Source: Mesostigma viride
Lineage: Eukaryota; Streptophyta; Mesostigmatophyceae; Mesostigmatales; Mesostigmataceae
Direction of reading: 5' to 3'
Assembly (NCBI GenBank): GCA_009746045.1
Contig: RPFO01000130.1
Coordinates: forward strand, 333,808-397,807
DNA: 64,000 nucleotides
In this document: one piece after another, positions 28,734-52,139 of the stretch
How positions within the stretch are numbered: position 1 is the stretch's first letter
How the letters are laid out: each line of letters begins with the position of its first letter
Notes under the pieces: model-generated
Databases searched by the model: none
Told to the model about the DNA's origin: nothing
The model's input: only the letters and a program-made list of their open reading frames with translations
Translations under genes and position numbers: made by a program

Positions 28734-28753
28734 CCAAGCCCAGGGGGACAAGT

Positions 28754-29422: not shown

Positions 29423-29641
29423 CCTGCCTCCTGCACGACGTCTACTCAAACTCAAGTTTGTCATCAAGATGAAGGAGGTGGACGGGGTCAAGGTACCACA
29501 TGTCAGGCCCGTGCTGAATGAGTTCAAGGGTACTGGTGAGTGCACTGCTGAGGAATTGTATACCCCTGGCATGCTGCATGACACTTGGAGGCTGCTGCTG
29601 TGTGTATTTCTAGGCCTTCTCAACAAGGGCTTGGACTATGG
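29403..29641 (+). pseudogene. RT N-terminal part of copy A (interrupted)
   Basis: It reads CVEPVNDLPPARRLLKLKF, VIKMKEVDG and VRPVLNEFKGTG, the Copia RT start (W-LV-LP--RK--G-KWVFK-K ... A-LVAKGF). It stops at GLDYG where element D has inserted. The terminal TATGG at 29637-29641 is the left target-site duplicate. Coding resumes at 32244. Confidence 0.85.
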
Positions 29642-30240: not shown

Positions 30241-30252
30241 TGGTATCGGGAG
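30241..30252 (+). promoter_or_regulatory. Primer-binding site of element D
   Basis: TGGTATCGGGAG begins immediately after the LTR and resembles the TGGTATCAGAGC site used with initiator Met tRNA by many Copia elements. Position and TGG start support it; the exact tRNA is inferred. Confidence 0.7.
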
Positions 30253-33446: not shown

Positions 33447-34411
33447 GCTGGTGCCTGGTTATAGGGCATTGGAGAGCAGGTTGTGTGGTAGTGTCAGCAT
33501 TGTGACTGGCATAATACCTGTATTTTACTCTGTACTAAGGCTCATGGACCATGGTACACTCACTCTGATTTTAATCAGGATACAGCCAGGTTTTGGCTGG
33601 GGTTCATGCTGTTGACTACACAAGGTTGACAGGTCCATTACAGACCATGTATTCTATTTTAAAAGAAATGTATATTTGTACATACCTCTCACAAATTGTG
33701 GTCATTATGGTCTGGGAACCTTTATTCTGGGGTTTATAGGGCGGGGTTCGATTCCCTGGTATTATGTTTCTACAAGCTGGCCTGCTCAGGTGTTTTACCT
33801 GTTCAGACTTCCCTAGTTCCCCAGGGCAGGATTTAATTGTTGCCTATGTGTTTCATTTTGTCATTTGTTTGCTGTGGCAATTTATCATCTGACAAGTAGA
33901 CGGGCGCCGTAAGACGGGCGCCAATACTAACCTGTTGAGAGTATGACGGGGAAACTATTGTAATACGTCTTACTTTGTCAAGTGGTAATTTAATTGTCAT
34001 GGATTTCTTGTGCTTATATTGAATATGTACTGGGTTTTATGGGATTAGTATCTGGGATTAATGTAACTCACCGCCAGAAGGTCATTGTACTGGAGGCTCT
34101 ACCGAGGTGATGGGATTAATTCCTGGAAAAGACCTCATAGAATTAACCTGTATGTATTTAATTTTGTGTGTTTCTAATATCTGGTGGTACTATGTAATGC
34201 CACTTCCATAGGTTTTTATCCATTTCTCATGGAATGGTTTTCCCTGTGGCAGATCAGTTTCTTTTCCAGTTCCTTAAAAGAAAGGGCTGGGGGAATGGCA
34301 TTGGCCATTAAAGACATCTGTTCAAGCTTTCAAGCTGGAGTGAAGGACATTTCAAGATACTCCAAGGGTCCCTGACAGGGGATGTGATCCCTAAAGAAAA
34401 GAAGGGATTGG
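33447..34411 (+). other. 3' UTR and polypurine tract of copy A
   Basis: Non-coding. A B-box-like GGGGTTCGATTCCC lies near 33746. CTAAAGAAAAGAAGGGATTGG (34391-34411) is the polypurine tract just before the 3' LTR. Part of this UTR (33640-33718) is found inverted at 35028-35085 and 37047 onward, in A'. Confidence 0.75.
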
Positions 34412-35027
34412 AGTTAACGTAAAGGATTTACGTTAGATGGATAGAGATTGTTACGCTCTTTCCAACGGCACCTTGAACGCCTCATTTGGTTATGGGACGT
34501 AAAAGTTATGACGTTTCCTAGGCTGTGCCGACAGTACCCGGCGCGCCACTGTGGGCGCGTACGGACACAGGATGTACAAGTGTCACTTTGATAGTCCGCA
34601 GGACGTTGACAGGACTTGTACAGGACTTGATGGTCAATTGATAGGTAGGCGTGCTGTAGCGCGCCAGGACCTATGAGACAATTGATGCTGAGTAGTGTAC
34701 GGATAGGTCCACAGGACTAGCCGTATGGACAATTGATAGATCTGCGCGCCAAAGGCGTGCCAGAGTCTGTGTAATCAATTGATTGACAGTTCAGCTGTGA
34801 CAGTGCAGCTGAATACTTGGACGCGTCCCTAGCAAGCTATATGTGTGACTTGGTCGCACCGGGACGCTAGCTCTTGCGTGCACGCTCTCTTGGCACAACG
34901 ACCCTGTCGTCTGTGCTACGTGCAGTCTCGGACTTGACGTGACTTACGTATGTGTTTGCTTATTATAATAAAGGCAACTTTCCTGCAAGAGCCATGGATT
35001 CTCTCGGGAGTAAACTCTCATTCAACT
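34412..35027 (+). repeat. Copy A 3' LTR
   Basis: 616 bp, AGTTAACG...TTCAACT, about 99% like the 5' LTR by eye. The next base onward is inverted 3' UTR of A', so the LTR sits at a tail-to-tail junction. Confidence 0.92.
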
Positions 35028-35085: not shown

Positions 35086-35665
35086 TTCATGTCCCACGTA
35101 GCTCCCACAAAAACCAGCATCTTCATTAAAACAATAAGTGGAAGCATACATGTGACACTAATTGACATGCCCGGAGGCACGCCGTTCAAGGCCCTTCATG
35201 AAGTACGTTGCCCTAGAGGCAACCAAGACAAGGGTGGGTGGGTGGGGAGCAAAGAAAGAGGCCGACAAAACCAGCCAGAGCGGCTTTTAGTCGCAAAACC
35301 TCCCTTATCCCTAGCTAACTGACGTCATTAAACCCTTATGTTTAGTGGATGCTAGTAAGACGCTAACCGTACAGACCGGGGGTAGAATATCCCGAATCTG
35401 CACGGCTAGTATTAAATAATGCGTAGGTTGTTCTTTTCAGGGGCACTGCACCTCACGCCCCGTTCCGCCCGGGTATAATCAACCCAAGCGCGGAACGCAC
35501 ATTTTATTTAATTCATTTTTCAACCATGCACTATATTGCATCTACTAATCACAAAAGCTCTAGCCAAACAGCTACGAGTAAACACTACGACCTATAAGCC
35601 GCTCATCCAGCGGCCTCTTGTTCCCGCATTCACGCATAGAAGAAACTCCGTTCAAAGAACCCCGA
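35086..35665. mobile_element. Element C, first copy (internally deleted)
   Basis: 580 bp starting TTCATGTCCC and ending AACCCCGA. Its first 130 bp equals the start of the second copy, and its last 420 bp equals the end of the second copy. Between them about 30 bp (AGAGGCAACC...GTGGGTGGG) replace an 830-bp interior. It abuts the second copy head to tail without any spacer. Confidence 0.8.
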
Positions 35666-37046
35666 TTCATGTCCCACGTAGCTCCCACAAAAACCAGCAT
35701 CTTCATTAAAACAATATGTGGAAGCATACATGTGACACTAATTGACATGCCCGGAGGCACGCCGTTCAAGGCCCTTCATGAAGTACGTTGCCCAATCACC
35801 CCCGCCCTGGCTTTCCCTTGAAGCCGCACTCCACCTTGCTCGTTGTCACAAGTGACCGCCCTGACGCAAAACGGGAGCCCCCCACATCGGGAGGCGTGTG
35901 CCCGGCGGCTGTGGATGCATGGCCAGGCCCCAAAAGGCCCAGCGCATTTGCACTGCGATTGCGCACGGCCAGCCTATCATGACCCCTCTCGGGGCCCCGA
36001 GTCGGTACCGCTATGGCCGTCTCCCCATAGACCCGGGGTGCTTCGAGAAAAAACGTGGACCTAGCCCAGGCCCCGCCAGCCCGGATGCCCGAGGCCACAG
36101 CCCCAGGCACCTGGCTGAACGAGAGTCCGTTCAGCCAAGACCGCATTCCCCCCGAGGTTTCTATGCGTGGGGAAAAAATTTCTAGCTTAGGCGCTTTTCC
36201 CATCGCCGTCCCCAGCCCCAACCACCCCCCCTCGGCGGAAGGCAATTGCAAAGTTTGCTGGCCAGCAGCAATTTCCGAAGAAAAAGCCGCAGGCCGCGGA
36301 CCGAGACACGGGTCGCCAGTGCCAGCCATCCGGCTCCAACCCGGGGTGCAAGCATCCCCAGGTACGGAGCACCAGCTCGCGCACTGGGCCGACCAAGCGA
36401 CAGTTGAGCACCTGTCACGGCATCCGGCCCACCAAAGACCCCAAGCTGGGGAAAAGGTGCGGACCGGAGGTAATCATTTTCTTTTCTTTTAGTTAACCGG
36501 GCGAGGAACTACGCCTGGCCGGTTAACAACTGGAAGTCTCACCACTGGCCAAGTGGCCAGTGCAACCAGTGCTTTTGGGATTTTGCTCCGCAGCACCCAT
36601 AGCTGCGGCTGCCGCCGCAACGACAACGAGCAAAGAAAGAGGCCGACAAAACCAGCCAGAGCGGCTTTTAGTCGCAAAACCTCCCTTATCCCTAGCTAAC
36701 TGACGTCATTAAACCCTTATGTTTAGTGGATGCTAGTAAGACGCTAACCGTACAGACCGGGGGTAGAATATCCCGAATCTGCACGGCTAGTATTAAATAA
36801 TGCGTAGGTTGTTCTTTTCAGGGGCACTGCACCTCACGCCCCGTTCCGCCCGGGTATAATCAACCCAAGCGCGGAACGCACATTTTATTTAATTCATTTT
36901 TCAACCATGCACTATATTGCATCTACTAATCACAAAAGCTCTAGCCAAACAGCTACGAGTAAACACTACGACCTATAAGCCGCTCATCCAGCGGCCTCTT
37001 GTTCCCGCATTCACGTATAGAAGAAACTCCGTTCAAAGAACCCCGA
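35666..37046. mobile_element. Element C, second copy
   Basis: 1381 bp, same ends TTCATGTCCC and AACCCCGA. The GC-rich middle (35797-36625) has open frames on both strands (for example 35796-36329 minus), but they overlap in several phases and match nothing known, so it is probably non-coding. The A' sequence on either side (ACATG then GTCTG) joins perfectly when both copies are removed, so there is no target-site duplication and no loss. This excludes an ordinary LTR or DDE transposon insertion. Helitron-type ends (TC...CTRR) are also not evident; a circle-integrating tyrosine-recombinase element is one possibility. Confidence 0.75.
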
Positions 37047-38273
37047 GTCTGTAATGGACCTGTCAACCTTGTGTAGTCAACAGCATGAACCCCAGCCAAA
37101 ACCTGGCTGTATCCTGAATAAAATCAGAGTGAGTGTACCATGGTCCATGAGCCTTAGTACAGACTAAAATACAGGTATTATGCCAGTCACAATGCTGACA
37201 CTACCACACAATCTGCTCTCCAATGCCCTATAACCAGGCACCAGCTTAGACAGCTTGCTGAGATGGGTCCATCAGAGACTGAAGAACCTTGTATTGCACT
37301 GCTGCCTTCTGCACTAGCTTGGTCAAAGCATCAGCAGGATTGTCAACCCCAGGGATATGCTCAATATTGGCCAAGGAGGACAATTCCTTAAGAAGGAGAT
37401 AATCCAAGTCCCTACTTCTGGCCATCTGCCTGTGCACAAACTGCACCATCCCCATGGAGTCTGTTTTGAGAAGAGTGGTAACCTGAAGTGGCCAAGGAGT
37501 GTTAGAAGTCATCTGATGAAGCAACTCCTTCAGATAAAGGCTTGTGTGAATGCCTTCACAAATAGCCCTGCATTCTGCCACATCACTGCTGACAGCCACC
37601 CGTTTGTGCAGGCGACTAAACCAGCTCACCAAACTCCCCAGGCCTTCCTGTCTGAGCACAAAGAGCCCTGCAGCCCTGCCCCTGACCTTGGAGACCTGCC
37701 TGCTGTCCATTGAGCTATCCACATACAGCTCCATGCAAATGGGTTGTGATAAATCCACTGCAGACAACAGAATGCCAGATGAAGCCCTGACCTCAGTGAT
37801 CAGCCACCTTGGCAGACCCTAGCTCCATCAGCATGTCATCAGGCAACCTGGCTATGACCATAAGGTCTGGCCTGGAAATGCCTGCCACCCAAGCAACCAT
37901 GCCCCTCACCATGGGACACAGTGCCTGTGTGATGACTGGAGGAAGCTTGCTAATGAGGGTCTCTTGATAATCATTGCCCCCCACCAGCAGCATACGCCAC
38001 TCTCCCCCCTTCTTCACCAGTGTGGCCTCCATGCCCACAAACAGCAGAGGCTCATTCTCCACCTGCCATTGCTCCCTACCCAGAGGAAACTTGGACTTAA
38101 TGATGGAGATCAGCTCCTTAAGCCACGACGTGGGAGCCAGCAGGTGCAGGTCGTCCCCGTGCAGCGAAGCATACACTGGTAGGCCTTCCCATTGCCCCAG
38201 AAATAGACAGGGGTCTACAGGAGAGACCTTCAAGTTGCAATGCTCCTTCAGGAAACGGTTGAGAGTCTCCCTC
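37047..38273 (-). pseudogene. RT catalytic domain and RNase H of copy A', with 3' UTR
   Basis: The RT half reads LKVSPVDPCLFLGQWEG and LHGDDLHLLAP (HGDD at 38150-38161), then on to AKVADH*, where four extra bases near 37795 shift the frame. RNase H resumes at 37767 with SAVDLSQPICMELYVDSS and keeps all catalytic positions (VAECRAI, LLKTDSMGM, NPADALTKL), with a stop at 37246. The leading pentamer CCCTC (38269-38273) is the target duplicate of element B. Positions 37047-37245 are 3' UTR. Confidence 0.88.
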
Positions 38274-38728
38274 AGTTAGATGAGATGCTTAGGCTGACAC
38301 ACGGATTTCCGGCCTGCGCGCCGCGTATTGCCTACCGCGGCTGAGCGGGACACCTCAGCACTGTACGGCAGGTCGTACGGTACTGAGGTGTCATGTGGAC
38401 CGGTGTGCGGTTAGCGCCAGACTGTGCATAGGCTCTAGCTCGACCCGCCAGATCCGGGTTATCCGGGTCTGACGGGCCGAGTGTAGTTGATGCTAGTGAC
38501 GTGGTCGCATGGCATTGCAGTGTACAGTTGTCCACTGGTAGGTGCTGCAGGTAGCACCGCCATAGGCATATAGGCGTAGCACTGGGGAGTGCCGCAGCAC
38601 CCGAGTTTGCCCAGACGTTCCATTCTGAGCCCTCAAGCTTACACTACTCTCATTGTATTATTGCTAATACAACCATCCTTCGTTTCAGCTTTCGGCAGTT
38701 GTCCATCGTCGTTAGACTCCATCCAACT
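38274..38728 (+). repeat. Element B 5' LTR
   Basis: Begins AGTTAGATG and ends CATCCAACT, which are imperfect inverted complements of each other. The border is fixed by the CCCTC duplication and by TGG of the primer-binding site directly after. It contains a large palindrome-like GTACGGCAGGTCGTACGG region. Confidence 0.92.
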
Positions 38729-38740
38729 TGGACTGAAAAG
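38729..38740 (+). promoter_or_regulatory. Primer-binding site of element B
   Basis: TGGACTGAAAAG starts at the first base after the LTR. The TGG start matches the CCA end of a tRNA. The tRNA is not identified. Confidence 0.55.
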
Positions 38741-38769
38741 CTTTTTTATTTTTTCCGAAAAAACAAAAA

Positions 38770-40425
38770 ATGGCTTCCAACAACGGCAACGACAACAACA
38801 AGGGGAAGGCGCCTGCCAGGCGCACATCACCCCGACTCTCGCCGGAGGGCACGCCCTCCGCCAACGATGCAGCGAGGGTGACGCCTAGCGTCACCTTCCG
38901 CACGGTGGTCGCCGACCACCCCAGGCGTCGGACCCCGCAGGTGGGGACCGGCGCCCGGGGGATGGCGAGCGGACGTCCGTTTGCCACTGGCGGTTCGTCC
39001 GCCATGGCACCCGGGGGGCAGGTCCCCCGGGCACGTAATTCCCCCGTCGCAGGTGATGGGGGTCGTGAACGGAGTGACTCCTCGGAAGAGGACGGGGAGG
39101 TGCGCCTGCGAGGCCACGGCCTTCGCTCGAGATTTCTTCACAGACGCCAGCGACGTCTGGTAATCTCTCGGTGGGCCGACAGATGGCCACCATGGACATC
39201 GACCGGTATGGTGCGCATGTTCCGCCTGTGGAGTTCGGGCGCTTACCGCATCTTCTCCCCATCGGGGAAGACGACATCCCAGCGTTCATTTCGGTGAACG
39301 GCTGGATCATTCATCAGCGTTTTCAGTTGACGAGATGAGCCGATACATGCGATGAGGTTCATCGGGCGCAAACGATGATCGAGGGTCGTCTGAGGATGCA
39401 GTTCCACCTGATCCAGGTGGCAGTTTGGCTGTGGTGTTTCGCCAATCGGCCGAGGCGCAATCCCGGCACTGTTGATCAGTGGGCGTCCAGGCAGCGTCAG
39501 AGAGAGGCGCTGCGCGTGGTCGCCAGACAGGAGATCCGCTGACTCCGTTGGGCCGTGGCCCCAAGTCACGCCAGTTGGCTGGGGCCCGGAGAGGCGTGAG
39601 GCGGCTGCGATGCCGCCTGCGACGGAGCGCGGGGCGGCAGTCGCCCCAACACGCCCATGGGTGGTGAAACCACCCAGGACCCTCTGGCAGGTCAGAGGGT
39701 CCAACCTCAGCAGCGGGCTCCCCCGCCCAGCGTGGGGGGCCAGGTGGCTGAGGAGGCCACCGGGGTCGCAGGGACCCCGGCGGCGACGCAAGCGCCCGGG
39801 GTCGCAGGGACCCCGGCAGCGACGCCGGCGCCTCCGGCGCTGGCGGGGGATGCAGCCCCCATGGAGGGTGTCACGGGCACCTCCAGCGGCTCTGGGGGGC
39901 AGGCCCCCTCTAGTCGCAACAAGGACAAGGCCCTGGCAGGGCCGGAGGGGCCTCAGGGTCCCACCTGGCAGGGCAGCAGCCGGCACGGCTGGACGGCGAC
40001 CTGGAAGGTCGGACTTCATCACCCTGGGTGATGAGGCCGTGTGGCGTGCCATACAGGCTGCCACAGCCTCCTTCCGTGGGCTGGCCGACAGGAGCCAGCA
40101 GATGCACGTCGCGGAGGCGGGCAGCCTGGTGTGTGCGATTATCACGCACATCCTGGGCTTGCCCAACCTCCAAGCGGACACACGCAGGGTGTGTGACGAC
40201 CTGCTGCCTGCCCTGCAGGCCCTCCTCTCAGGGAGGAGGGTGCAGGGCAACAGGGTTCGCCTGGTGCGACTCCTGGAGCTCCTGCACAATGCCATCCTGA
40301 AAGGGGCGGGTAGGTGGTTGCCTACCTGGCTGCATCATGATTTACTAACCCTACTGACGATGAAGTGTCCCTCTCTCCCACCTTCCATGATTGGGAGGAG
40401 GCCCGCAGCAGGAGGCGGGAAGTGA
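38770..40425 (+). pseudogene. ORF1 of element B, upstream of gag
   Basis: It starts MASNNGNDNNKGKAPARR at 38770. The frame breaks near 39140 and again before 40010. A Pro/Ala/Gly-rich middle has the repeat GVAGTPAAT. The conserved-looking C-terminal part is in another phase: DEAVWRAIQAATASFRGLA, RRVCDDLLPALQALLSGRR and RVRLVRLLELLHNAILKG. That last part resembles LFQDLAILQLLSRG...LLLNLVAFLSALREW of the family A ORF1 in pattern and position. Function unknown; perhaps a helical structural protein. Confidence 0.5.
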
Positions 40426-40457
40426 CACACACTCACACCCCCACCCAGCCCACCCCT

Positions 40458-41400
40458 ATGTTGTCTAACCCTCCTACACAGCCCATGTTTGCCCATCCTG
40501 CTCAGCTCACTCAAGTAGCACTTCCCTCTCAGCATGTCTCTCCTGTGAATGCTGCAGCAGCAACACCATCTTCTCCCTCTCCCCCTGCATCCCCCTCTAG
40601 GTTGCCCACTTACAATGAAAACCGTCCTGTGGATAGGATTAATGTCAGGGGGCTGCCTGAGGGGTATACTAGGGAGCAGGGGAATCATGCACTTCTCTCT
40701 CTTCAGCTGGCTAGGGAGGAACTGAATGTCAAGAATTGGTTTGGATCTCTCATGCAGGGGGATTTTTACCATCAGTCCTCCTCTCAGATTCAGAATCTCA
40801 TTCTTGTCTTCCAGCGTAGGTATCCCAAGTGGCAGGACACGCAGGCTAGGGCAGTTTGGGAGGCTTTCATGAAGGAGCTAACTGACCTCCTCTCCACCCC
40901 CTCATCTGTGGACATATATGGGGCATTCAGGTGGGTAGAGGAATACAGGGTCACATCAGTGGACTATGTGGCTGAGACAAAGAAATATGAGCTAGCCATC
41001 AAAGCACGTCCTGATGTCCAGCAGCTAGATCACAAGTTCTTGCTGCGTTCTTCCTTGAGAAACTCAAACTTGACAAAAACACCTACGCTATGCTTGCAAC
41101 AGGAATGGCAAAGTACTGGGAGGACATGAAGGAGGCATTGGATTATATCAAGCTGGCCTTGGCTCCCCTTAGCCAGGGGGCCATGGGCACCTCTGTAAAG
41201 AGGGTCAGGGGGGAGAGAGGGAGGAGGAGGATAGGGAGAGGGAAGACAGGAGCAAGAGACCTGTCACCATGGCAGAAGTCAAGTCCCTGCTGGGACAAAT
41301 GTTTAAGGGCAAGGGCAAGGGCAAGGGCAAGGGCAAGGGCAGGGGCTGGGGCAAGGGCAAGGGTAAGGGGCAGTCTCCCTCCAAGGGGGGCAGCTCCAGC

Positions 41401-41477
<77 letters not shown>

Positions 41478-41538
41478 AACAACAACAAGCAGGACAAGGA
41501 GGACAAGTCTTCTCAGCGGTGCACCCGCTGTGGCATGA
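40458..41538 (+). pseudogene. gag of element B
   Basis: The first in-frame ATG is 40458, though the frame is open further upstream. After a Pro/Ser-rich start come helical segments: LLSLQLAREELNVKNWFG, IQNLILVFQRRYPKWQDTQ and AVWEAFMKELTDLL. Near 41065 and 41240 the frame shifts, continuing as AMLATGMAKYWEDMKEALDY and then MAEVKSLLGQMFKGKGKG. A Lys-Gly repeat and an (AAC)n poly-Asn tract (41401-41478) lead into the zinc knuckles of the next frame. Likely capsid plus RNA-binding tail. Confidence 0.65.
41398..41480 (+). repeat. AAC trinucleotide repeat (poly-Asn) in gag of B
   Basis: About 26 AAC units. It lies between the basic Lys-Gly tract and the zinc knuckles; length slips here would change the reading frame. 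Family A has a shorter Asn-rich tract at the equivalent place. Confidence 0.95.
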
Positions 41539-42761
41539 AGTACCACCTGCGGCCCACCTGCCGCAAGAACGTGGACGAGCTGGGGCATTTGGACGTCCTG
41601 TGCCACAAGTGCCACGGGCCGCCCCACGGTGACCCCAAGGACTGCAAGCGGCCTCCTTACGGCAAGAAGTGTGAGTCTCCCTCTCATGCTGGCTTGAGTG
41701 TGCCTGCTTCACCTCTTTCATCTGCATGCCCCACTGTCAGAGCAGTGAGCAGTTCTGGAAAGGTGCTACAGCTGGTTTCAGAAGATTATGTCTCTAAACC
41801 AACCTTCACATCTATGGTTCCCAAGGTGTGCAGAGTGTCCCCAGCAGAGGATGCTCATATCAGTTTTCAGGAGCTTGCTTTGCAGTTGCATTTCCTTTAT
41901 GGGCATGAAGTGAGTGCAGAGGTGGTGGCAGCAGCAATAGGGGGGGCAGCACTCAGACGTGCATGCCAGGTGGTCAGATCCCACTGCCAGCATTGTCAGT
42001 TCAATGCACCCAAACCCCCTAAGTGGCATGTAGCTACCCCACCTAAGTGCAAGGGCAGGGTGGTAGGAGATGTCTTTCATATCAAAGGACAATCTTACTT
42101 GGCACTTAAAGATGCATGGTCAAGGTACACAACCATTGAACCATTACCTGGAATGGACAAGACACAGTTGCTCAGGGCTCTCTTGATTGCTCAGGCCAGG
42201 TACTACCCTGTGGAGGCATTGTTACTGGATCAGCAGTTCACGTGTCTTGCCAATGAACCAGGGTGTGAGGCTATTGATCTGGCTGGGCTAGAAGATCATG
42301 AGAGGCAAGGCATTATTGAAAGGGCCATCAGGTCCATTAAAACCCTTGTAGCCAAAGAAGATGGCAATCTGCTGGCTGACAGTGGGTCATATGCTGACAG
42401 AGCTCTGTGGTCCACCAGGTTGTGCCAAGTCCTCAACAGGAGGCCACTCATGAAAACCCCACAAGGGGTGGTCATTACACCAGATGGATTGCATGCAGGC
42501 ATTTATCCACCTGAGGTACTAGCCCTATACAACGCACAGCGAGCACAGACAGCTAGCAGGTTAGCTGTCAAGGATGCAAAGCATCCACGTCCCACCTTCA
42601 GAGAAGGGGATCAGGTCCTATTCTACAAGGAGTCGGGACTAGGCAAGGTGGGTACCTGGCATGGGCCAGCCACCATCCTAAAGTTTAACACCACTGGCAG
42701 GACAGTGTTAGTTAAACACAATGACACGGGAAAATTCACAGGTGTTCACCTCACAGGATGA
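41500..42761 (+). CDS. Zinc knuckles fused to integrase, element B
   Basis: One uninterrupted frame carries CTRCGMKYHLRPTC (CX2CX4HX4C) and CHKCHGPPHGDPKDC, then LQLHFLYGHE...CQVVRSHCQHC (HHCC finger), then the DDE core: VVGDVFHIKG (Asp), DAWSRYTTIEPL, EALLLDQQFT (Asp) and QGIIERAIRS (Glu). The C-terminal domain reads GTWHGPATILKFNTTGRTV. There is no protease between the knuckles and the integrase, which proves the unusual order in a single reading frame. The stop TGA (42759-42761) overlaps the ATG of the protease frame as ATGA. The frame is open upstream through the Asn tract. It looks intact, although the element is defective elsewhere. Confidence 0.85.
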
Positions 42762-43440
42762 AATTGTATTTTCCAACTGTGTCAGACGTGGCAGAGGAGG
42801 AAGAGCTGTTGGCCGACAGCCCTGTACAGTTGCCTGGCATCCCAGCGTTGCCCAGTGAGTGGTTGTTTGGAACACCCACTGGTGAGTGTGAGAGCCACAC
42901 CCACTGTGACACCCAGGTCACCCTTGATGATTGCAGGCAGTCACTGCAGGCTTGGCCCCCTGCAGCAGAGGGTCACATTGGCAAAACAGGTGATCAGCAA
43001 CCTATCACCTCTTCAAGTGTGAACATAGCTCAGCCACTAGCTGCACCTTCCAAACGCAGCCTAGCAGACGCTGTTCGCATTTTACAAGCAGCTCATAGAG
43101 CCAAAGCTCAAACTGCTGCAGGATCAGCTAAGGTGGGGAAGGTTGGGCAGAATGACAATAGCCCATTTATGGTTGCAGTGGACACACAAGCCCAGGTCAG
43201 CATTATCAGTGCCCTGGCTGTGCCCCATTGCCTTTGGAACCTTCACCCTGGCACCATGTGGCTGATTTCTCAGGGCAGTCATCCCTCAAGGTATTAGGTC
43301 AGGTCATGTTGACTATACTCGGTATCCCCACTCCTTTTCAGGTATTGGAAGGTTATAAAGGGAATGCTTTGTTGGGGGATCCTTTTCTCTGTTACCCTGG
43401 TGTCCTATCTCCAGTGATAGACTATCCATCCAGGACATGG
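42758..43440 (+). pseudogene. Aspartic protease of element B
   Basis: ATG at 42758 overlaps the integrase stop. The N-terminal region (about 110 residues) is variable; then LADAVRILQAAHRAKAQ aligns with LAGLIGALQRAKKQPK of family A and leads to MVAVDTQAQVSIISAL (catalytic Asp codon 43181-43183; DTQ where DTG is usual). After a frame change near 43235-43290 it continues VLGQVMLTILGIPTPFQVLE and NALLGDPFLCYPGV, the LLG-xFL motif. Same placement as in A: after integrase, before RT. Confidence 0.72.
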
Positions 43441-45224
43441 GTGGTGTTGATCTGAATCATTTCAAAATTTCTCTTGAAAAACTTCTTAACACCAACATTG
43501 CTTCTGTAAAATTTGCTACACCCAAGTATGCCCCAGGGCAAGAACCCTGTGTGGCAGACTTGGTTCACAACCAAAAACTTCATCCCAACTCATTTGGATT
43601 GGGCAAGCATGATGTGGCTAAAATGTCTCCTCTTTCTTATGAACAGATAGAGCAAGACTGTCGCACACACATAGGATTCCTAAAATGGGTGGAGGCCTTT
43701 AACAAGGCCAGGGAAGAATGGGTAGTGCCAGATCCTCTTAGTCCTTCTCATACTCCACCTGTCACACCTATTGACAAAAAGCCTGCAGGGTGCAAGCACT
43801 TGCGCCTGAAGTTTGTGTGTAAACATAAGCCAGCAGCAGATGGGTCAGTCATTTTCATGCTAGACCTTGTGTGACAGAGTTCAAGGGCACCACTGATCTG
43901 ACAGAGGCAGAGTTGTACACGCCAGGCATTCAGCAAACATCCTAAAAATCTTGCTGTCTGTCTTTGTGGGTCATCTCAATGATGGGGATGACTATGTATG
44001 TAAGGCTACAGACATTAAAAGGGCTTTCCTGAAAGGCTCACCTGAGATAGCACAACAAGTGTGGCATGGTCAGGTGTATGTAGTCTCCACTCCCAGAGTT
44101 TGGGCAAAACACATCCCTCAGCAGTACCTGAAAGCTAACATAGGTGTTGAAGGGCTGCAATCAGCTCCTCGCATTTTCAGGATGTCAGCTCAGGCTGTGT
44201 TTGAAAAGCTAGGGGCTAGATATGATGACATAGACCCTTGCTTCTTTGTGGTCCCACACCCTCATGGCATTCTCACCTTTGTGTGGCATGGGGATGATCA
44301 GCTGATTGCTGGGCCAAGGCGTGCTGTGGATGATTTTATTCAACAAGTGTCACAGCATTTTGAGATTGGCAAGCAAGTAGAGCTGGGCACCACTGCCATA
44401 AAATTTTGTGGCACAATGTTACAACTCCAGCAGCATCAAAACCAGTGGGTGTGTGCACTTACTCTCCCAATGATTACATGCACAGCTGCTTGGAGGTTTT
44501 GCAAACAAAAATCAAACCTGGAGCCTGTCCTACCATTAGAGGCAAGCTGGGGTGGTTGTGCTCAACGTGTGCACCTCACCTGGCTGTGGTTAGCAGAGTT
44601 GATGATGATGTCTTGATGCAAGTAGGTCACAAAGCCATCACCAAAACTCTCCAGGAAGGCCCTCCCCTTATCTTGCACTCCTTGGATCTCCACAAAACCA
44701 TTCACATCCAAGCTATGATGGATAGTTCCATGGAGTCCAGGCAGATTACCAAGTTGCAGGCAAGGGAGTCAGGCTTGTATTTTGTGCAGAATGATGATGC
44801 ACCCTTGTCTCTCATTTCATGGTACAGCCGGTTGCATAGACGCAAGGCTGTCAGCAGCAATGCTGCTGAGTGCAGGGCAGTGGTGTCAGCAGTGCTTCAT
44901 GCCAGGTACTTGAATCATGTGCTGGTTTGGTTGCAGATGCAAGCAGGCAGCAATGCTGGGGTGGTGGCACACTTGCTCACTGACAGTCAGTCAGTCCTCA
45001 GTTTCCTTGCTAACCCCTATGCTGTGCACACTGATCTTGACTGGGTGGTCCTTAAACAGGAGTCCACCTACTGGGAGTCCACCCGTCACGTGGAGGACAA
45101 ACACAACGCTGCTGATGCACTCACTAAAGTGCCTCAGCAGGCAGCTGAACAATATCAGCTGTTGTACCACTTGATGAACCCCTATGGCAAGCAGGCAACC
45201 CTGCCCCATAGGGGGGACGCCTAG
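43437..45224 (+). pseudogene. RT and RNase H of element B
   Basis: The linker and RT start (FGLGKHDVAKMSPLSYEQI, KHLRLKFVCKHK) break near 43865. RT resumes at 43951 with ATDIKRAFLKGSPEIAQQVW (motif A), GVEGLQSAPRIFRM and WHGDDQLIAGP (HGDD at 44287-44298). Another shift near 44420-44450 leads to RNase H: HIQAMMDSSMESRQ, SWYSRLHRRKAVSSN, AAECRAV, LLTDSQSVL and NAADALTKV. The order and spacing follow Copia RNase H. Stop after GDA at 45224. Confidence 0.88.
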
Positions 45225-46393
45225 CAGGGTCCTGTTCACCAGGGCCGCCTAGGTCACCCAGTACCCCTTGGGCAGGTCCAAGGGGTAGGTTGTGGCTTCC
45301 AGCAAGGGGGTTGGTTGGAGTCTGTTTTCATACATCTGCGTGCCCTATGCCCAATAAAATCTGTTTTGATTTTTTCAACACCATGGAATTTCGTTATGCA
45401 CACCTTCATAGGTGGGCATGGGATGTATCTCACACTTTTTCCACTAGGGCGTATGCCTTGGTGGATTGGCCTTGAGCTCAGTGGCTCAGGTGCCCCCATT
45501 CAAGTGGAGGGTCAAAGCTCCCTTGACAGGTGGTTACCCAGGACCCCAGCTCACTGTGGATCTCCTGGGCCATCTGGCCTCACTGTTCAGTGGCAGTAAA
45601 GGCATGGGTGCTGTCATGTTGTCTAGTACAACGTGCTCAGTCCAGGTGCAGGATGAAATATTCCTGTCACCTGTCACCAGGACTTCAGCCACCATGTGCA
45701 GGGCAGGGGTGGCTGGTCTCACACGTTGTGCAGGTGCAACGTGGACAGGTCCAGGATGTCATAGTCCTGTCACCTGTCACCAGGAATTCAGCCACCACTG
45801 TGCAGGGCAGGGGTGGCTGGTCCTCACACGTTGTGCAGGTGCAACGTGGACAGGTCCAGGATGTCATAGTCCTGTCACCTGTCACTATAGGACTTCAGCT
45901 CCCTCTGTGCAGGGCAGGGGTGGCTGGTCCTCACATGTTGTGCAGGTGCAACATGGACAGTGCAGGGTGCAATAAACCTGTCTACTGTCACTCCTCAGGT
46001 TGCAGGTAACCTGAGCTCAGTTGACCCAGCCTGGCTGGGTATTTTTTTCTCTGAGTGGGCGATGATGATGGAACAACATGGAACCTCTTAAACGGTTACC
46101 TTGGCATTTTTACAATGGCTCTCTTGGCTGGTGATGCACTCCCTGGATAGGCAGACAGGCATAGCTATCTCCCTTGTGAGCTCGCGAGGAGGAGGAACTC
46201 CCCGGGCATGTTGAGCTAAACGTGATACCATCACAAGTATTGCACGAGTTCTGGGGCCCATCTTTTTCAGTCCAGATGTTGCAGTATGGGTGTCAGTTGC
46301 TCAGCACCTCAGTCAGCTTGGAGTCAGTCTCCTAGCTGGGCAGGATCAGGCTTGAAGTCGCTAGCCTTCAACCTGAAAGGAAAACATAATGGG
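45225..46393 (+). other. 3' UTR of element B
   Basis: Non-coding, 1.17 kb. AATAAA at about 45353 is a possible polyadenylation signal. A tandem array lies at 45641-45990. The sequence just before the LTR, CTGAAAGGAAAACATAATGGG, is a mediocre polypurine tract. Confidence 0.7.
45641..45990 (+). repeat. 105-bp tandem repeat in element B 3' UTR
   Basis: Units start TCCAGG at 45641, 45750 and 45855, with a partial fourth. Each contains CCTGTCACCTGTCACY, TGTGCAGGGCAGGGGTGGCT and GTTGTGCAGGTGCAACRTGG. The last includes a GTTG...CAAC inverted pair. Confidence 0.9.
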
Positions 46394-46854
46394 AGTTAGA
46401 TGAGATGCTTAGGCTGACACACGGATTTCCGGCCTGCGCGCCGCGTATTGCCTACCGCGGCTGAGCGGGACACCTCAGCACTGTACGGCAGGTCGTACGG
46501 TACTGAGGTGTCATGTGGACCGGTGTGCGGTTAGCGCCAGACTGTGCATAGGCTCTAGCTCGACCCGCCAGATCCGGGTTATCCGGGTCTGACGGGCCGT
46601 CGGAGTGTAGTTGATGCTAGTGACGTGGTCGCATGGCATTGCAGTGTACAGTTGTCCACTGGTAGGTGCTGCAGGTAGCACCGCCATAGGCATATAGGCG
46701 TAGCACTGGGGAGTGCCGCAGCACCCGAGTTTGCCCAGACGTTCCATTCTGAGCCCTCAAAGCTTACACTACTCTCATTGTATTATTGCTAATACAACCA
46801 TCCTTCCGTTTCAGCTTTCGGCAGTTGTCCATCGTCGTTAGACTCCATCCAACT
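46394..46854 (+). repeat. Element B 3' LTR
   Basis: Same borders AGTTAGATG...CATCCAACT as the 5' LTR. Nearly identical, with three small insertions (for example GTCG near 46598) explaining the 6-bp length difference. Confidence 0.92.
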
Positions 46855-47285
46855 CCCTCCAGATTATTGGACTTGACCTCAGGCCCTCCAGGCCTTTGAG
46901 GATTTTAAGGAACTCAGTGTGAATGTCCCTTTTCCATACAGCAGGCACCCTGACATAGAAAGGCGTCTTGCCCTCCCACTTTTCCTGTGCCACATCTGCA
47001 TCCCCCTCCAGAAATGCCCTCTTGAAGTCTACCACCACTGAGCCATAGTCCAAGCCCTTGTTGAGAAGGCCTAGAAATACACACAGCAGCAGCCTCCAAG
47101 TGTCATGCAGCATGCCAGGGGTATACAACTCCTCAGCAGTGCACTCACCAGTACCCTTGAACTCATTCAGCACTGGCCTGACATGTGGTACCTTGACCCC
47201 GTCCACCTCCTTCATCTTGATGACAAACTTGAGTTTGAGTAGACGTCGTGCAGGAGGCAGGTCATTGACAGGTTCCACGCATTTC
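46855..47285 (-). pseudogene. RT N-terminal part of copy A' (interrupted)
   Basis: It reads EPVNDLPPARRLLKLKF through VVVDFKRAFLEGDADVAQ to GLRSSPIIWRE, where B has inserted. It shows the uninterrupted sequence across the D insertion point of copy A. Two extra codons (IL, in FLKILKGLEG) distinguish it from A. Confidence 0.87.
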
Positions 47286-47867
47286 TTGGAGATCCAGTCC
47301 AGGCTCCCCAGATTTAATCAGACCCAGTGTGACCTGGGGACACATAATGGGAGAGGACATGAGCTTCACCAGGCCTTGGTAGTTGATAGGGCTGTGTCCA
47401 GCAAGTGAGTGAGGACCAATGCCCAAACTGCTTGGATGACTAGCAGCTGGCAATATGAGGTCATCAACCAAGGGCTCCTGCCCCTGGCACACTTGCACAC
47501 GCTTAACCGTCCTGGTTACTGCACGTGATAGGTGAGTGGTCCTGAAATTAATCAGTGGGACCTGACCAGCCCCTTCCTTAGTCAGGAGAGAGGACGTGAT
47601 CACTACCCCATCCTGGCATAGGAAATTCTGCCCCAGAAGAGCAGGTCCCTGATAGCCCTCCAAGACACAAAATGCAGTGTCCTGTCCAAGGATAGGAATA
47701 GATACCTCACCCAGTACCTTCACGTGTACCCCGCCACTGAAGTCAGACACAAACTGATAGCTGGGCTCAGTCATGCTGTACCCTGCTGCAGCTCTGGTCC
47801 CAATGATGGAGACCTGAGAATTAGTGTCTACCTCTAAGGCAGTGTCCAGCCCCAGCCAGATTGCCAT
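47262..47867 (-). pseudogene. Aspartic protease of copy A'
   Basis: LEVDTNSQVSIIG and ALLGQNFLCQDGVVI are identical to copy A, including DTN in place of DTG. The upstream join to integrase is broken by a four-base duplication (CTGG) near 47855-47862; without it integrase and protease would be one frame. The downstream frame ends at GTCQ while RT reads one frame over, exactly as in A. Confidence 0.78.
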
Positions 47868-49329
47868 GCCACCTGAGCTTGGCTACCTTGGGCTGCTTCT
47901 TGGCTCTTTGCAGAGCCCCAATCAATCCAGCCAAACTAGTCCCCCTGGGCTTGGTTAGAGCCTTGGGCTTGACAGTTGACTCCCCAGCTGTTGACCTTGC
48001 AACCTGTTCAACAGGTACCTCTGCAACCTGGCCAGGGCTGACAGATTCCCCTGCAACAGATGTGGTCGTTGCGTCAGTGATGTCACCTGGGACCTGAAAA
48101 TCCTGCAGGTCCTGTGAGCCTTGTGCCTGACTGCCCTCATTCATCAGGTTAGGCTTGACATATGACCAACTCAGCCGGTGCACATGCTTTGGTTCGTCCT
48201 CCATGCTGACCAAGCATGCGTGGCTAGCTTCATCAACCTGGGTAACCACCCCAGGACTCCAGCTACCACGTTTGCCATAAAGGCTAGGTTCCTTCCAAGC
48301 TAGGACCTTCTGACCCACTTGTGGCTCCAGCATCTTCCAACCCCGGTCCTTCTCCCTCAGCTTGGCAAAGGTGACATGTGCAGCTTGCTTCCAGCCCTCC
48401 AGCACATGTGGGGGGCACAGGCCATGATATAGACCCATTGGGCTGACAGCAACTCCATCATAGTAGAAATTGACCCTGCTGTTCAGCTGCTGCTCCACGT
48501 TCCTCAGCCATGCACTCCTGACAAGTGCAGGTGCAGACAAGGGTACCCAGTCTTCAGAGATGATCAATTTCTTGACCTCCTGGATTGCCCTCTCTATAGC
48601 ACCCTGCTGCCCATGAGCCTCCCTAGGTGTAACCAGCAACTCAGGAAGGGTGGGATCACCCTTGAGATGCTGAAACTGCATGTCCACCTGGATCCTTGTG
48701 GTAGGAAACTTGGCTCGTACATTCTGCAGGGCAGCCAGCAAGTACCTGTTCTTCATAGAAGGTAAATGCTCTAGCACCTTGTACTTTGTGTACCTGTCCA
48801 CGCACACCAACAGTTGCATGCCCCTGATGTGTTGGATATCACACTGCAGATCACCAATACTCTGAGGTAGAGCTTTGGCATGTGATTTCCTGGGCTTGTT
48901 GGAGGACAACTGGCACTTACACCGTGAGGCAGCTTGCTGACACGCCTTGAGAAGGGGTGCCCTGCCCATACGGAAGGCAAAGTTGTTTGACAGAGAAGTG
49001 GCATGCCCAAACATGTTGTGGATTCGGGCACCCAACTCCTGGTACACAGAGGAAGCAGTCCCTGGCACAGTCAGGACTGTGCTGTCAGGTTGTCCAGCAT
49101 CACCATGCTGACTTCCATCCTGTTCTGACTCAGAGCCTGAGTCACCCTGCTCATGCCCAACACCTGGACCGCCAGCAGGGACCACATGCATACCACCAGA
49201 GGCCTTCACACCCCTCTGTGGTTGTACATTGGTTTCTCTCAAAATGAGAGGTCCACCCTCGTGCCCAGCACGAGGATGCATGGGGTCAGACATTCTTACA
49301 GCTGCACCAGCTGTCAAGGACGTCTTCAT
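47821..49329 (-). pseudogene. Integrase of copy A'
   Basis: A 502-codon frame starting MKTSLTAGAAVRMSD. It has the HHCC finger (IHNMFGH...CQQAASRCKC), Asp/Asp/Glu core (CDIQHIRG, RIQVDMQF, GAIERAIQ) and the C-terminal domain. Unlike A it continues in frame through VAGESVSPGQVAEVPVEQV to LAGLIGALQRAKKQPKVAK, the protease N-terminal segment, before the CTGG duplication derails it. This is the best evidence that integrase and protease formed a single polypeptide in that order. Confidence 0.88.
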
Positions 49330-49470
49330 AGGAACCTGTACCTCTCCAGGTGACCTGGGGCCATCCTGAACCTGGAGATCACCCTCTTGTTGCCCAGATA
49401 TAAAATCTGCATTGGAGCACCTGGCCCCCCCCTTGGGTGAATTAAGGTGTGTAGGGGTTGCCTCAGACAG

Positions 49471-50586
49471 TCACTGCTCCTTGTTTTCTTCTTGTTGACT
49501 GCCCTTTGAAGGCTGGCCTGCCTGGGACTTGTTCTTGTTGTTGTTGTTGTTGTTGTTACTCTTGGTGCTGCCCTGGCCCTGGGTCTTCTTGAAGCTGGGA
49601 CACTCCTTCTTGATGTGCCCCCACCCCTTGCACAGGTAGCACTGGATCTTTGACTTGCCCTGGCCTCCTCCCCCGTTGTCAGGCGCGTTACCCTGCCTGG
49701 GCTTGCCACCCACCCTCCTGAACACCGACTTGGCATGTGATTGCCCGTCAGGGTCGGGTGAATGGTTCGCCTTCCGCTTGTTGTGGTTGCCCCCACGTCC
49801 TCCTTGGCTTCTGTCAGCCTCAGCAGACGCCTTGGAGCCCCCCTGGGCACGCCCACCTGCGTGGGTAGCCTTCACAGCTGGCACTCCACCCTCAAACAGC
49901 TCCTCTGCCTCGAGTGCTTGTTTGATTATGACCTTGTAGGCCTTGAGGGTAGAGTGTGGGGCACACATGACCTTTAAAGAGCCACGTGTTGCCTTGTCCA
50001 GCCCAGAAACCTTGAGCCATTTTGTCGGGGCTATGTTGTCAGCAACATTAAAGCCATGAGCCCTGCCCTCCTCAACCATTTTACAATAGTTAAGGAAGTT
50101 TTGGATAAGGTCTCCTTTCACCTCCCACCCTTGGTATTTATCCTGCCAATGGATCCCCACCTTCTTCCGTTGATCCTCTAGCAGCTCTCTTAGTTCTGCC
50201 ACGTAGAGTGCCCAGGCCTTGTTGGCCTTCTTGCACTCTCTAGTGAGGTCCTTTATCTGATCTGTACACTTGCCAAAAGTCTGGCTGCCAATCCAGATCT
50301 GATAATAGTTTGTACCACCGTACAAGCTTGGAAACCCCTCTAGCCCCTCCACAAACTCCTCAGCCTGCTTTGGCTTTGAGTCTGACGTGACAGGTTGCAG
50401 TTGATTAACAATAAGTAGACCCTGGGTGGTGAGATCATATCCAGAGACAGCATGTGTATTATTATTAATAGGTACATTGGTAATCTCGCCGGTAACCCCC
50501 ACGTCATCTACGTGGGCGGTCCCACTACCTGCACCTCCATTATTACCACTGGCTGGAGCACCCTTGCTACGGCGCCCGTCCGCCAT
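49471..50586 (-). CDS. gag of copy A' (intact frame)
   Basis: 371 codons. I chose MADGRRSKG at 50586 over the ATG four codons upstream because copy A starts at the equivalent residue. It contains EEFVEGLEGFPSLYGG, YYQIWIGSQTFGKC and ALYVAELRELLEDQRKK, then a basic region, the zinc knuckle CYLCKGWGHIKKEC, and a C-terminal Asn/Lys tract. Retrotransposon Gag of UBN2/Copia type is the closest concept: it would form the particle and bind genomic RNA. The stop separates it from the integrase start by about 140 bp in a different frame; how Pol is expressed is unclear. Confidence 0.85.
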   Translation of the reverse strand: MADGRRSKGAPASGNNGGAGSGTAHVDDVGVTGEITNVPINNNTHAVSGYDLTTQGLLIVNQLQPVTSDSKPKQAEEFVEGLEGFPSLYGGTNYYQIWIGSQTFGKCTDQIKDLTRECKKANKAWALYVAELRELLEDQRKKVGIHWQDKYQGWEVKGDLIQNFLNYCKMVEEGRAHGFNVADNIAPTKWLKVSGLDKATRGSLKVMCAPHSTLKAYKVIIKQALEAEELFEGGVPAVKATHAGGRAQGGSKASAEADRSQGGRGGNHNKRKANHSPDPDGQSHAKSVFRRVGGKPRQGNAPDNGGGGQGKSKIQCYLCKGWGHIKKECPSFKKTQGQGSTKSNNNNNNNKNKSQAGQPSKGSQQEENKEQ

Positions 50587-50751
50587 GATGTACAACAAGC
50601 TGTCTTAGCAAACACCAGAGTAAAGCAGCAAAAGAAAGTATGTACAACTGTCGACGAATGCCGCCTGCACCGGTGTCGCCGCCGCCCCCGCGAAACGCCG
50701 CTGAAAAGTCGACTAAGCGCCGACGAGCACTGGAAAAAATGGCCGACTTAT

Positions 50752-51510
50752 TCAGTAGTCGAGGCCCCGGAAATCGCAGTACTCATATGTAAACTCAGGA
50801 TCCTCCATTTCCGGCGTGTGAGCCGGACCTGCACCGGTATGAATCAAAACCGGTGTGTTCGCCGGGTTTTGCGTCGGATCGAAAATTGCGATGCGCCGAC
50901 GCGCGACGAGACGAAGAGGATGAGTAAAAATGGACAGAAGCTCCCAGCCCGCGGGAATCCACTCTCGCAAGGCCGAAAGAAATGCGACCAGGTTGATGAG
51001 GACCTGTCGCTCGCGAGTGCGAACGCCGCGTGTAAGCAGCGAAAGCAATGCGATGTCCTGAAACAAATTTGTAGTGACCACCGGCGCGCCCCCCGTGCGC
51101 GTCGAGGCCCAGTTTTGCAAATTGCGCTGGTACCCGGTGAGCGAGGAAATTGCGTTGTCCACCTCCTCGATGGCGGTGGTGACTTCGTTCACCGAACGCA
51201 GGCCGCCTCGGACCTGAACCGTAAAAGCCGAAAGAATATTTCGGATTTGGTCTAATGGCCCGCGAATCGCCGGCACCAGCTGCGGCAGACGGGGGTTCTC
51301 GGGAAAATCTCCCAGCAAAGGGAGAGCTGCTCGCTGTCGACGATGTAACTCGTCGAGGGAAACCGTGACTTCGTCAAGAAGTGCTTGCCACGATGGCGCA
51401 GCCGGCCGTGGCTCGCGCGGACGCGTAACCGGTAATGGATCAGCCGGCGGAGCAGCTACCTCCTCGTCGGTGGGAATGCGGAATTCTTCGGAATTTGGCC
51501 TGATCGTGAA
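50752..51510 (-). pseudogene. ORF1 of copy A'
   Basis: The frame is open from inside the LTR-proximal leader. The residues matching the A start (MPDSMEFRIPRDSE) read PNSEEFRIPTDEE and lack the ATG; the first ATG in frame is 51318. It then contains VNEVTTAIEEVDNAISSLTG, TTNLFQDIALLSLLTRG and RERQVLINLVAFLSALREW, ending YEYCDFRGLDY. Roughly as diverged from A ORF1 as anything in the pair, yet the frame is intact, which suggests past selection on the protein. Function unknown. Confidence 0.65.
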
Positions 51511-51525
51511 AAGGCGAGTAATACG

Positions 51526-52139
51526 AGTTGAGAGAGAGTTGCCCTGAATTCCGCCATGGTTCTTGCAGGAATGTTGCCTTTATTAAGAATAAGGAACACA
51601 GACGTAAGTCACGTCACTTCCAAGACTGCACGCAGCACAGACGACAGGGTCGCAGTGCCAAGAGAACGTGCACGCAAGAACTAGCGTCCCGGTGCGACCA
51701 AGTCACACATATAGGTTGCTAGGGACGCGTCCAAGTATTCAGCTGCACTGTCACAGCTGAACTATCAATCAATTGATTACACAGACTCTGGCACGCCTTT
51801 GGCGCGCAGATCTATCAATTGTCCATACGGCTAGTCCTGTGGACCTATCCGTACACTGCTCAGCATCAATTGTCTCATAGGTCCTGGCGCGCTACAGCGC
51901 GCCTACCTATCAATTGACCATCATGTCCTGTACAAGTCCTGTCAACGTCCTGCGGACTATCAAAGTGACACTTGTACATCCTGTGTACGTACGCGCCCAC
52001 AGTGGCGCGCCGGGTACTGTCGGCACAGCCTAGGAAACGTCATAACTTTTACGTTCCTTAACCAAATGAGGCGTTCAAGGTGCCGTTGGAAAGAGCGTAA
52101 CAATCTCTATCCATCTAACGTAAATTCTTTACGTTAACT
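51526..52139 (-). repeat. Copy A' 5' LTR
   Basis: 614 bp, reading AGTTAACG...CTCAACT on the minus strand. The outer part is close to the A LTRs; the last 120 bp are more diverged. It contains AATAAAGG near the 3' end. Outer flank TCAATAATG is Gypsy integrase. Confidence 0.92.

Follow-up and report, generated by a model that had tools for sequence, protein, structure and literature searches.

The window analysed here, a stretch of 64,000 nucleotides, holds three LTR retrotransposons in which the integrase (INT) is seemingly encoded ahead of the protease (PR), and this raises the question of whether such an order is real and how it may have come about. In the usual pol orders, PR leads: Ty1/Copia elements have PR-INT-RT-RH and Ty3/Gypsy elements PR-RT-RH-INT. 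An earlier note on this DNA had proposed a Copia-like lineage departing from both. We find that the order Gag-INT-PR-RT-RH is real in two families, here called A and B, and the sections below give the evidence for this together with our reading of where the domains may derive from.

Domain order in the three elements of the window

Element B (plus strand) occupies positions 38274-46854 within another element, A', and has the ends AGTT...AACT. Since it is nested in A' with LTR ends (5' LTR 38274-38728, 3' LTR 46394-46854) and a 5-bp target duplication of its own (CCCTC at 38269-38273 and 46855-46859), it is a separate insertion. One unbroken frame (41367-42761), as the earlier note had stated, carries both zinc knuckles (41520-41645), which were called by motif only (CX2CX4HX4C at 41520-41561 and a near-knuckle, CX2CX4HX5C, at 41601-41645), as well as the integrase (41748-42755), with HH at 41889-41918, the catalytic D, D and E at 42069, 42228 and 42318, and a tail. 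A PR-like domain follows, split over two frames in the window copy into an N-terminal piece at 43163-43222 (VDTQAQVSIIS at 43178-43210) and a C-terminal piece at 43243-43404 (DFSG...ALLGDPFL, of which DFSG...ALLG lies at 43261-43389). Downstream of it come the frames of RT (43897-44616, HGDD at 44287) and RNase H (44364-45224, with the motifs D at 44721, AECRA and ADALTK).

Element A (plus strand) has its 5' LTR, starting with AGTT and ending with AACT, at 24546-25161 and its 3' LTR at 34412-35027, with 6 differences between them over 617 aligned columns, a purine-rich tract just ahead of the latter and no matching target duplication at its ends. A Gag zinc knuckle (CCHC, by motif) at 27051-27098 is followed by a TGA in the Pol-start frame (CAG TGA CTG, the TGA at 27217-27219), the integrase from 27624 to approximately 28520 (HH/CC 27669-27779, D 27849, D 28005, E 28095, then tail), the PR-like domain (VDTNSQVSII...ALLGQNFL, 28826-29107) and the first part of RT (29367-29639, the start being approximate, from alignment to the A' frame). 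There, a separate LTR element that is no part of A (29640-32239, plus strand; LTRs of 588 bp, 100% identical) is nested within RT, and the remainder of RT (HGDD at 32535) with RNase H lies at 32240-33443. In A' (minus strand), the 5' LTR (51518-52139) precedes a Gag frame with a zinc knuckle (49471-50604) that stops at TGA 49471-49473, an integrase frame (47821-49470), the PR-like domain (47577-47858) and RT, which is divided by the B insertion into a first part at 46855-47317 and a remainder, with RNase H, at 37047-38273. The A' integrase frame extends into the segment immediately preceding the PR motif; a change of frame occurs there. Between A and A', PR with its linker differs by 2 synonymous and 0 non-synonymous changes, INT by 8 and 3, and RT-RH by 10 and 6, respectively. 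As they stand in the window, the copies of A and B are broken.

All three elements thus show the same order, as the earlier note had claimed, with INT, PR and the zinc knuckle called from weak profile matches together with motifs, and RH from motifs. With two LTRs, a polypurine tract and, in B only, a target duplication, and with Gag, PR, RT (over the Pfam cut-off in an intact B copy), RH and a DDE integrase among their predicted products, A and B classify as LTR retrotransposons.

Unbroken copies elsewhere in the genome

When the window's own genome (440 Mb) was searched for further copies, at least 79 of family A and at least 120 of family B were scored. Fourteen loci chosen for long frames were fetched, six of A and eight of B. 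In family A, INT, PR and RT lay within a single open frame at all six loci, and this frame reached the end of RH at four of them (L009, L010, L013 and L014), which carry the whole order unbroken. In family B, the knuckle, INT and the PR aspartate motif shared a single frame at 8/8 loci and the ALLG motif was found in that same frame at seven, with the frame extending through the end of RH at three (L028, L033 and L034). The families are clearly diverged (INT core 34%, INT tail 31%, RT 34% and RH 37% identical), and because unbroken copies of both exist elsewhere in the genome, a chance rearrangement is excluded, in agreement with what the earlier note had argued from the window. The arrangement is inherited. 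Outside this genome, no copies were confirmed among viral contigs and prokaryote genome contigs.

A and B probably represent two families of one, apparently undescribed, LTR retrotransposon lineage with a Pol of INT-PR-RT-RH behind Gag, whose common ancestor would already have had this order, both families then having spread with it.

Search for a protease between Gag and integrase

A protease hidden between Gag and INT, which the earlier note had named among the findings that would overturn its reading, was rejected, as both motif and Pfam scans were negative. D[ST][GA] was absent from every plus-strand frame between the B 5' LTR and the HH motif, and in the knuckle-INT interval of one intact copy per family no Pfam family was matched, protease profiles included. 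The distance from knuckle to HH is 206 residues in A, 123 in B and 197-262 in the Copia families of the same genome; hence the A interval is roomy enough for a protease and only that of B is clearly too tight. Under the explanation preferred below, Gag would lead straight into INT. Two further motifs, D-S-G-S in the B integrase after the catalytic E and D-T-G-A at 50677, upstream of the A' Gag in another frame, were considered and found in context not to be protease motifs.

Resemblance of the downstream domain to retropepsins

Retropepsins (clan AA) have a single-lobe fold with a D-[ST]-G motif and a late [ILV]-[ILV]-G motif, and both A and B retain the D-T and the LLG region (ALLG). A profile of the domain gave 20 PDB matches at E up to 10, all of them HIV-type proteases or ASPRV1, the best (E 0.013) being a tethered dimer with a score summed from two weak stretches and the best single-domain chain reaching E 0.87; a two-sequence profile had 4 antibody chains among its 15 matches. 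No Pfam match reached the cut-off; the A domain gave no match at all, and the sole match of an intact B domain was gag-asp_proteas at E 0.1 (residues 3-80 on 7-90 of 92). Two AlphaFold models of the region were of low confidence (mean pLDDT 42 and 49), for which reason we take their fold matches as no more than supporting evidence. Foldseek found retropepsins in 44 of the 50 matches listed of 423, and in 43 of the 50 listed of 409; the best E was 0.57 for one model and 0.56 for the other, query TM-scores were about 0.14-0.35, and the PDB contains very many retropepsins. The domain thus appears to resemble retropepsins weakly but consistently, with no test significant alone. The earlier proposal of an aspartic protease here is supported as far as this weak resemblance goes.

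Relation to the Copia families within this genome

In the intact B copy L028, RVT_2 scored 39.3 bits against a cut-off of 31.6, with the window copies staying below cut-off (A, E 0.0058; B, E 4.9e-5), and BLASTP found the RTs of A and B similar to those of the genome's Copia families in seven of eight pairs (E 2e-10 to 2e-5). RNase H of B was assigned by motif and had no match in Pfam. Judged from these comparisons, RT is of Copia type, and RH so by motif.

For the other domains, the Pfam matches stayed below cut-off or were absent: rve on INT gave E 0.0051 in A and 0.009 in B, zf-CCHC gave E 0.0052 on the A' Gag and was not found for B, and gag_pre-integrase matched neither A nor B, two Copia controls matching it below cut-off (E 0.042 and 7e-5). 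A profile of INT from A, A' and B matched integrases in the PDB with a best E of 0.0018, and retroviral integrases weakly. The catalytic D-E spacing is 29 residues, not about 35.

Four Copia families of ordinary build in this genome (L056-L063) carry PR ahead of INT, with VDTGATYHM or LDSAASSHM between knuckle and INT, and the three Copia PRs scanned clearly matched Pol_BBD, the profile of Copia-type proteases (E 5e-11 to 7e-16), to which no match was found in A or B. Compared with these four families, INT of A and B gave a best BLASTP E of 5.6 and an hhalign probability of 0.1%, the latter without a positive control. For PR, the best BLASTP E was 0.39 (one family) and the hhalign probability 0.1% (four families, again without a positive control). 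The designation of the lineage as Copia-like is therefore borne out for RT, and not for INT and PR, where similarity was undetectable.

Possible origins of the arrangement

Since neither INT nor PR of A and B could be related to its counterpart in the Copia families compared, the change need not have been a move of a Copia protease. It may instead be that a Copia-type RT-RH was joined by recombination to INT and PR of another, Gypsy- or retrovirus-like class, a mosaic origin that we consider evenly balanced between true and false and, from the sequence comparisons, at least as likely as a move of the Copia protease. Such an origin is favoured by INT and PR not being alignable with their Copia counterparts while RT is, by the Copia INT profile having as its top PDB match 7z0h (a 635-residue integrase chain that we take to be Ty1 integrase, E 3.9e-15), which is not among the best 60 of the 96 matches of the A/B INT profile, and by the A/B PR profile matching PDB retropepsins, whereas the Copia PR profile had one match, which was unrelated. 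The B integrase tail also holds a W-x-G-P motif that resembles the GPY/F module found in Gypsy elements and retroviruses, although Pfam found nothing in the tail. Rapid divergence of genuine Copia INT and PR could, however, look alike, the profiles are shallow (2-4 sequences) and the comparison set consisted of Copia families of the genome. A mosaic origin would refine the explanation by a single lineage, and leaves the order itself standing.

It is less likely, by comparison, that an ancestral Copia PR shifted from before to after INT, whereupon both domains diverged unrecognisably. That would suit the Copia-type RT, and since INT already precedes RT in Copia, PR alone need have moved; but neither PR nor INT retained any similarity to Copia that could be detected, and PR ends in ALLG-x-x-FL versus ARLLS-x-x-QL in the Copia PRs of the same genome.

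A third alternative concerns the function of the PR-like domain, which might be an inactive relic or non-proteolytic, serving for example in dimerisation, with cleavage carried out by the host or absent. The catalytic DTG/DSG position reads DTN in the six fetched A loci and both window A copies, and DTQ in the eight fetched B loci and the window B copy. This missing glycine was absent from the earlier note. The strict pattern D[ST]G[AS]Q with V, I or M as its next residue was matched once in the genome, at what we take to be a DDI1-like host gene, which together with the lost glycine speaks for this alternative. Against it, no other domain is as well conserved between A and B as PR (44% identity over 97 residues, ungapped), with the D-T and LLG regions kept, and three Copia families of the same genome use DSA at the active site, so the third active-site residue does vary; we regard this alternative as less likely than not. 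It is highly improbable that nesting, frameshifts or a misassembled window produced the order artificially: the copies in the window are indeed nested and have broken frames, but both families show the order again at several unlinked loci, each time within one open frame.

Proposed expression of the Pol proteins

Under the explanation that we prefer, of one lineage with INT and PR in this order, the Gag knuckle region in B shares one frame with Pol. In A, where the UGA codon and its context (CAG UGA CUG) were identical in 14/14 distinct places examined, a single in-frame UGA lies between Gag and Pol; readthrough of the Gag stop would therefore be the simplest route, with Pol made by its occasional use. 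The RNA after the UGA showed no unusual structure (z +0.95), which counts against this explanation. PR, presumably of retropepsin type and placed after INT and before RT, would act as a dimer within the particle, cleaving at either end of INT and releasing itself from the Gag-INT-PR-RT-RH polyprotein. INT and PR may, with about equal probability either way, derive from another element class. That A and B constitute an undescribed major lineage, combining Copia-type RT-RH with a non-Copia INT and a retropepsin, predicted to work with DTN or DTQ, is a tentative suggestion that we hold slightly less probable than its opposite.

Pol order serves as a mark for telling apart and annotating LTR retrotransposon superfamilies, and a lineage whose INT precedes PR departs from the rule of a leading protease and shows that integrase can come directly after Gag. 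Such a lineage could be misfiled or missed where tools expect PR to separate Gag from INT. With the glycine gone in two diverged families, the limits of change in the retropepsin active site could also be tested directly.

Comparison with known systems

No report of this pol order was found in open-licence papers, and the only exception to the standard orders among LTR elements met in the literature searched was Gmr1. Gmr1-like Gypsy elements are reported to have INT upstream of RT (PMC3587641, PMC2774666), and like A and B thus depart from the standard pol order within their superfamily; unlike A and B, in which INT precedes PR, they belong to a Gypsy lineage, and what is reported of their INT is its place relative to RT. 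With Ty1/Copia, A and B share an RVT_2-type RT, RH after RT, INT before RT, a CCHC Gag and LTRs, and B also a 5-bp target duplication, whereas PR after INT, the lack of detectable similarity in INT and PR, the 29-residue D-E spacing and HGDD in place of the HVDD of the Copia families of the same genome set them apart. With Ty3/Gypsy and retroviruses they share a retropepsin-like PR ending, weak INT profile matches and possibly a GPY/F-like tail, and differ from them in having INT upstream of RT and PR and an RT of Copia type.

Results

Element order in the window and in copies elsewhere

The 64-kb window (C1513:333808–397807 of the genome searched, G000, 439.9 Mb in 2243 contigs) contains three related LTR retrotransposon copies, which fall into two families, A (with A and A') and B. 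Element A lies at 24546–35027 on the forward strand, with six differences in 617 columns between its LTRs and no matching pair of target duplications at its ends, and its reverse transcriptase (RT) is interrupted by a separate 2.6-kb LTR element (29640–32239) that has 100% identical 588-bp LTRs and looks non-autonomous and young. A' runs on the reverse strand from about 52139 to 37047 and is interrupted by B (38274–46854, forward strand), which has a 5-bp target duplication, CCCTC, and LTRs that start with AGTT and end with AACT, as do those of A. Where the 3' end of A' is truncated there is a 1.8-kb element (35247–37052; 426-bp LTRs, 99.3%). Long GA/CT-rich simple repeats (8674–10810 and 12983–13864) lack stop codons in several frames of each strand.

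Zinc knuckles and integrase (INT) motifs of B were found within a single frame (41367–42761), followed by a protease-like (PR) region, broken across two frames in this copy, and then by RT and RNase H (RH). The order was the same in A and A', with frame breaks, and 29 residues separate the catalytic D from E of the integrase in both families. That nested insertions or decayed frames had produced this order was ruled out by open-frame copies. Genome searches with the A' and B integrases scored at least 79 matches (of 5721 candidates) and at least 120 matches (of 5375), respectively, and we fetched six A and eight B loci selected for long open frames. INT, PR and RT shared one frame in all six A loci, reaching the end of RH in four (1207–1208 aa); in all eight B loci the frame that holds the knuckle also holds INT and the aspartate motif of PR, in seven it includes the PR ALLG motif, and in three it extends to the end of RH (1507–1609 aa). 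The earlier note's order, Gag-INT-PR-RT-RH in all three elements, and its view that this was no chance rearrangement were thus both upheld.

The stretch between Gag and integrase

From the 5' LTR to the integrase HH motif, in three frames of each element's strand, B had no D[ST][GA], whereas A and A' had two each: CDSAVA and QGDSGSES in A, and QGDSGSES and GDTGAGG in A', the last in another frame upstream of Gag. All four were rejected as protease motifs, having no retropepsin-like context. Measured start to start, knuckle and HH motifs are 123 residues apart in B (81 from the second knuckle), compared with 197, 219 and 262 in the ordinary Copia loci L058, L057 and L059, so that a protease would not fit there in B; the corresponding 206 residues of A are long enough, yet gave no match. 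A search for protease profiles between Gag and INT, of the kind proposed in the earlier note, found none in the one intact A copy scanned (L009), the Gag frame of another A locus (L002) or, from knuckle to INT, the one intact B copy scanned (L028).

An RVT_2 search of the genome gave at least 150 matches among 1981 candidates, all above cut-off; A and B, with lower RVT_2 scores, were not among the 150 listed. Eight control loci, spread across the score classes, represented four Copia families (L056; L057 and L061; L058; L059, L060, L062 and L063). INT was ahead of RT in all eight and PR preceded INT in seven, reading VDTGATYHM in all four L059-group loci and LDSAASSHM in L056, L057 and L058; L061, left out of the PR reading, has knuckle and INT motifs in common with L057. 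DSA thus replaces DSG in three otherwise ordinary Copia families. RH motifs followed RT in five of the eight; the remaining frames stopped earlier, where the fetched sequence ended or close to it. Pol_BBD matched the three Copia PRs scanned (E 6.6e-16, 8.4e-15 and 5e-11), indicating that the scan detects ordinary Copia proteases where present, and both Copia INTs scanned matched rve above cut-off.

Identity of the downstream domain

Between A and B, PR was 44% identical over 97 gap-free residues, compared with 34% for the INT core, 31% for the INT tail, 34% for RT and 37% for RH. Its motif pair, V-D-T-x-x-Q-V-S-I-I and A-L-L-G-x-x-F-L, resembles what we take to be the retropepsin consensus. 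Against PDB, the PR profile matched 20 sequences at E ≤10, all named HIV-type protease or Retroviral-like aspartic protease 1, some names reading merely Protease or Pol protein; the top match (E 0.013) was a tethered dimer whose score adds two weak stretches, the best single-domain chain having E 0.87. A longer profile matched six HIV-type tethered proteases only (best E 0.25), and a two-sequence profile matched 11 retropepsins (DDI1 included) and four antibody chains. The intact B domain had gag-asp_proteas as its sole Pfam match (E 0.1, colinear), and the A domain by itself had none. Foldseek returned retropepsins as 44 of the 50 best of 423 matches and 43 of the 50 best of 409, with best E of 0.57 and 0.56 and low TM-scores, from low-confidence models and with retropepsin entries abundant in PDB. 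For the aspartic protease that the earlier note placed downstream of INT, these results give a weak, consistent retropepsin resemblance, with no test reaching significance singly. Taken together, they make PR likely to be a retropepsin-type protease domain, with the tethered-dimer scores taking a little from that likelihood.

At the third catalytic position, N stood in each of the six A loci fetched and in A and A' of the window, and Q in each of the eight B loci fetched and in B of the window; with these residues the domain may or may not be proteolytically active. Genome-wide, the pattern D[ST]G[AS]Q with V, I or M as the next residue matched once, at VDSGAQMTIMS in a short frame (L035) that is probably a DDI1 exon of the host.

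Synonymous and non-synonymous differences between A and A' numbered 2/0 in PR plus linker, 8/3 in INT, 10/6 in RT-RH and 9/13 in the C-terminal part of Gag; small as these counts are, together with the A–B conservation they argue for function. An extra frame of 211–275 aa between 5' LTR and Gag (A, 25338–25973, forward; A', 50752–51579, reverse), without Pfam match, differed at 240 of 611 aligned bases, with many gaps. As this is far more diverged than the adjoining LTR (95%) and Gag-Pol (97%), it suggests recombination between elements.

Gag-Pol junction

In the A family, the Pol frame is headed by a single TGA, flanked as CAG TGA CTG, at all 14 distinct places examined, both window copies included; L001 is the same place as A', L011 overlaps with L002, and each of these pairs counts as one. 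Gag stops at this TGA in A' and L002, with Pol continuing in the same frame, and readthrough would be the simplest reading. The RNA that follows has no structure beyond the usual. In B, the knuckle region of Gag is continuous with Pol in one frame.

Discussion

The RT of A and B is Copia-like as judged by sequence comparison, with 39.3 bits to RVT_2 for the B locus L028 and BLASTP E of 2e-10 to 2e-5 to Copia RTs of the same genome in seven of eight pairs, the pair of A with L057 being absent from the listing. The active site reads HGDD in A (32535) and B (44287), and HVDD in the Copia families of the genome. No similarity to Copia INT (four families) was detectable for the INT of A and B, with a best BLASTP E of 5.6 and an hhalign probability of 0.1%, nor to Copia PR for their PR (BLASTP to L059 only, E 0.39; hhalign, four families, 0.1%), the hhalign comparisons being run without positive control. 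Against PDB, the Copia INT profile found first the 7z0h integrase chain (E 3.9e-15), which we take to be that of Ty1, and the A/B profile found retroviral integrases (best E 0.0018; best 60 of 96 matches); the Copia PR profile gave one unrelated match and no retropepsin. The earlier assignment to a Copia-like lineage hence stands for RT but is not supported for INT and PR. Within the limits of shallow profiles, what appears to fit best is a mosaic that combines Copia-type RT and RH with an INT and a PR from another class.

Overall, A and B quite probably form one lineage with the order INT-PR-RT-RH in place of the usual Copia order, PR-INT-RT-RH. We found no report of INT before PR in the open-licence literature on unusual pol order. 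The published accounts of Gmr1, which is a Gypsy lineage, place its INT upstream of RT (PMC3587641, PMC2774666), and that of the Symbiodinium DIRS elements, which belong to another class than A and B, describes shuffled domain orders (PMC5890265).
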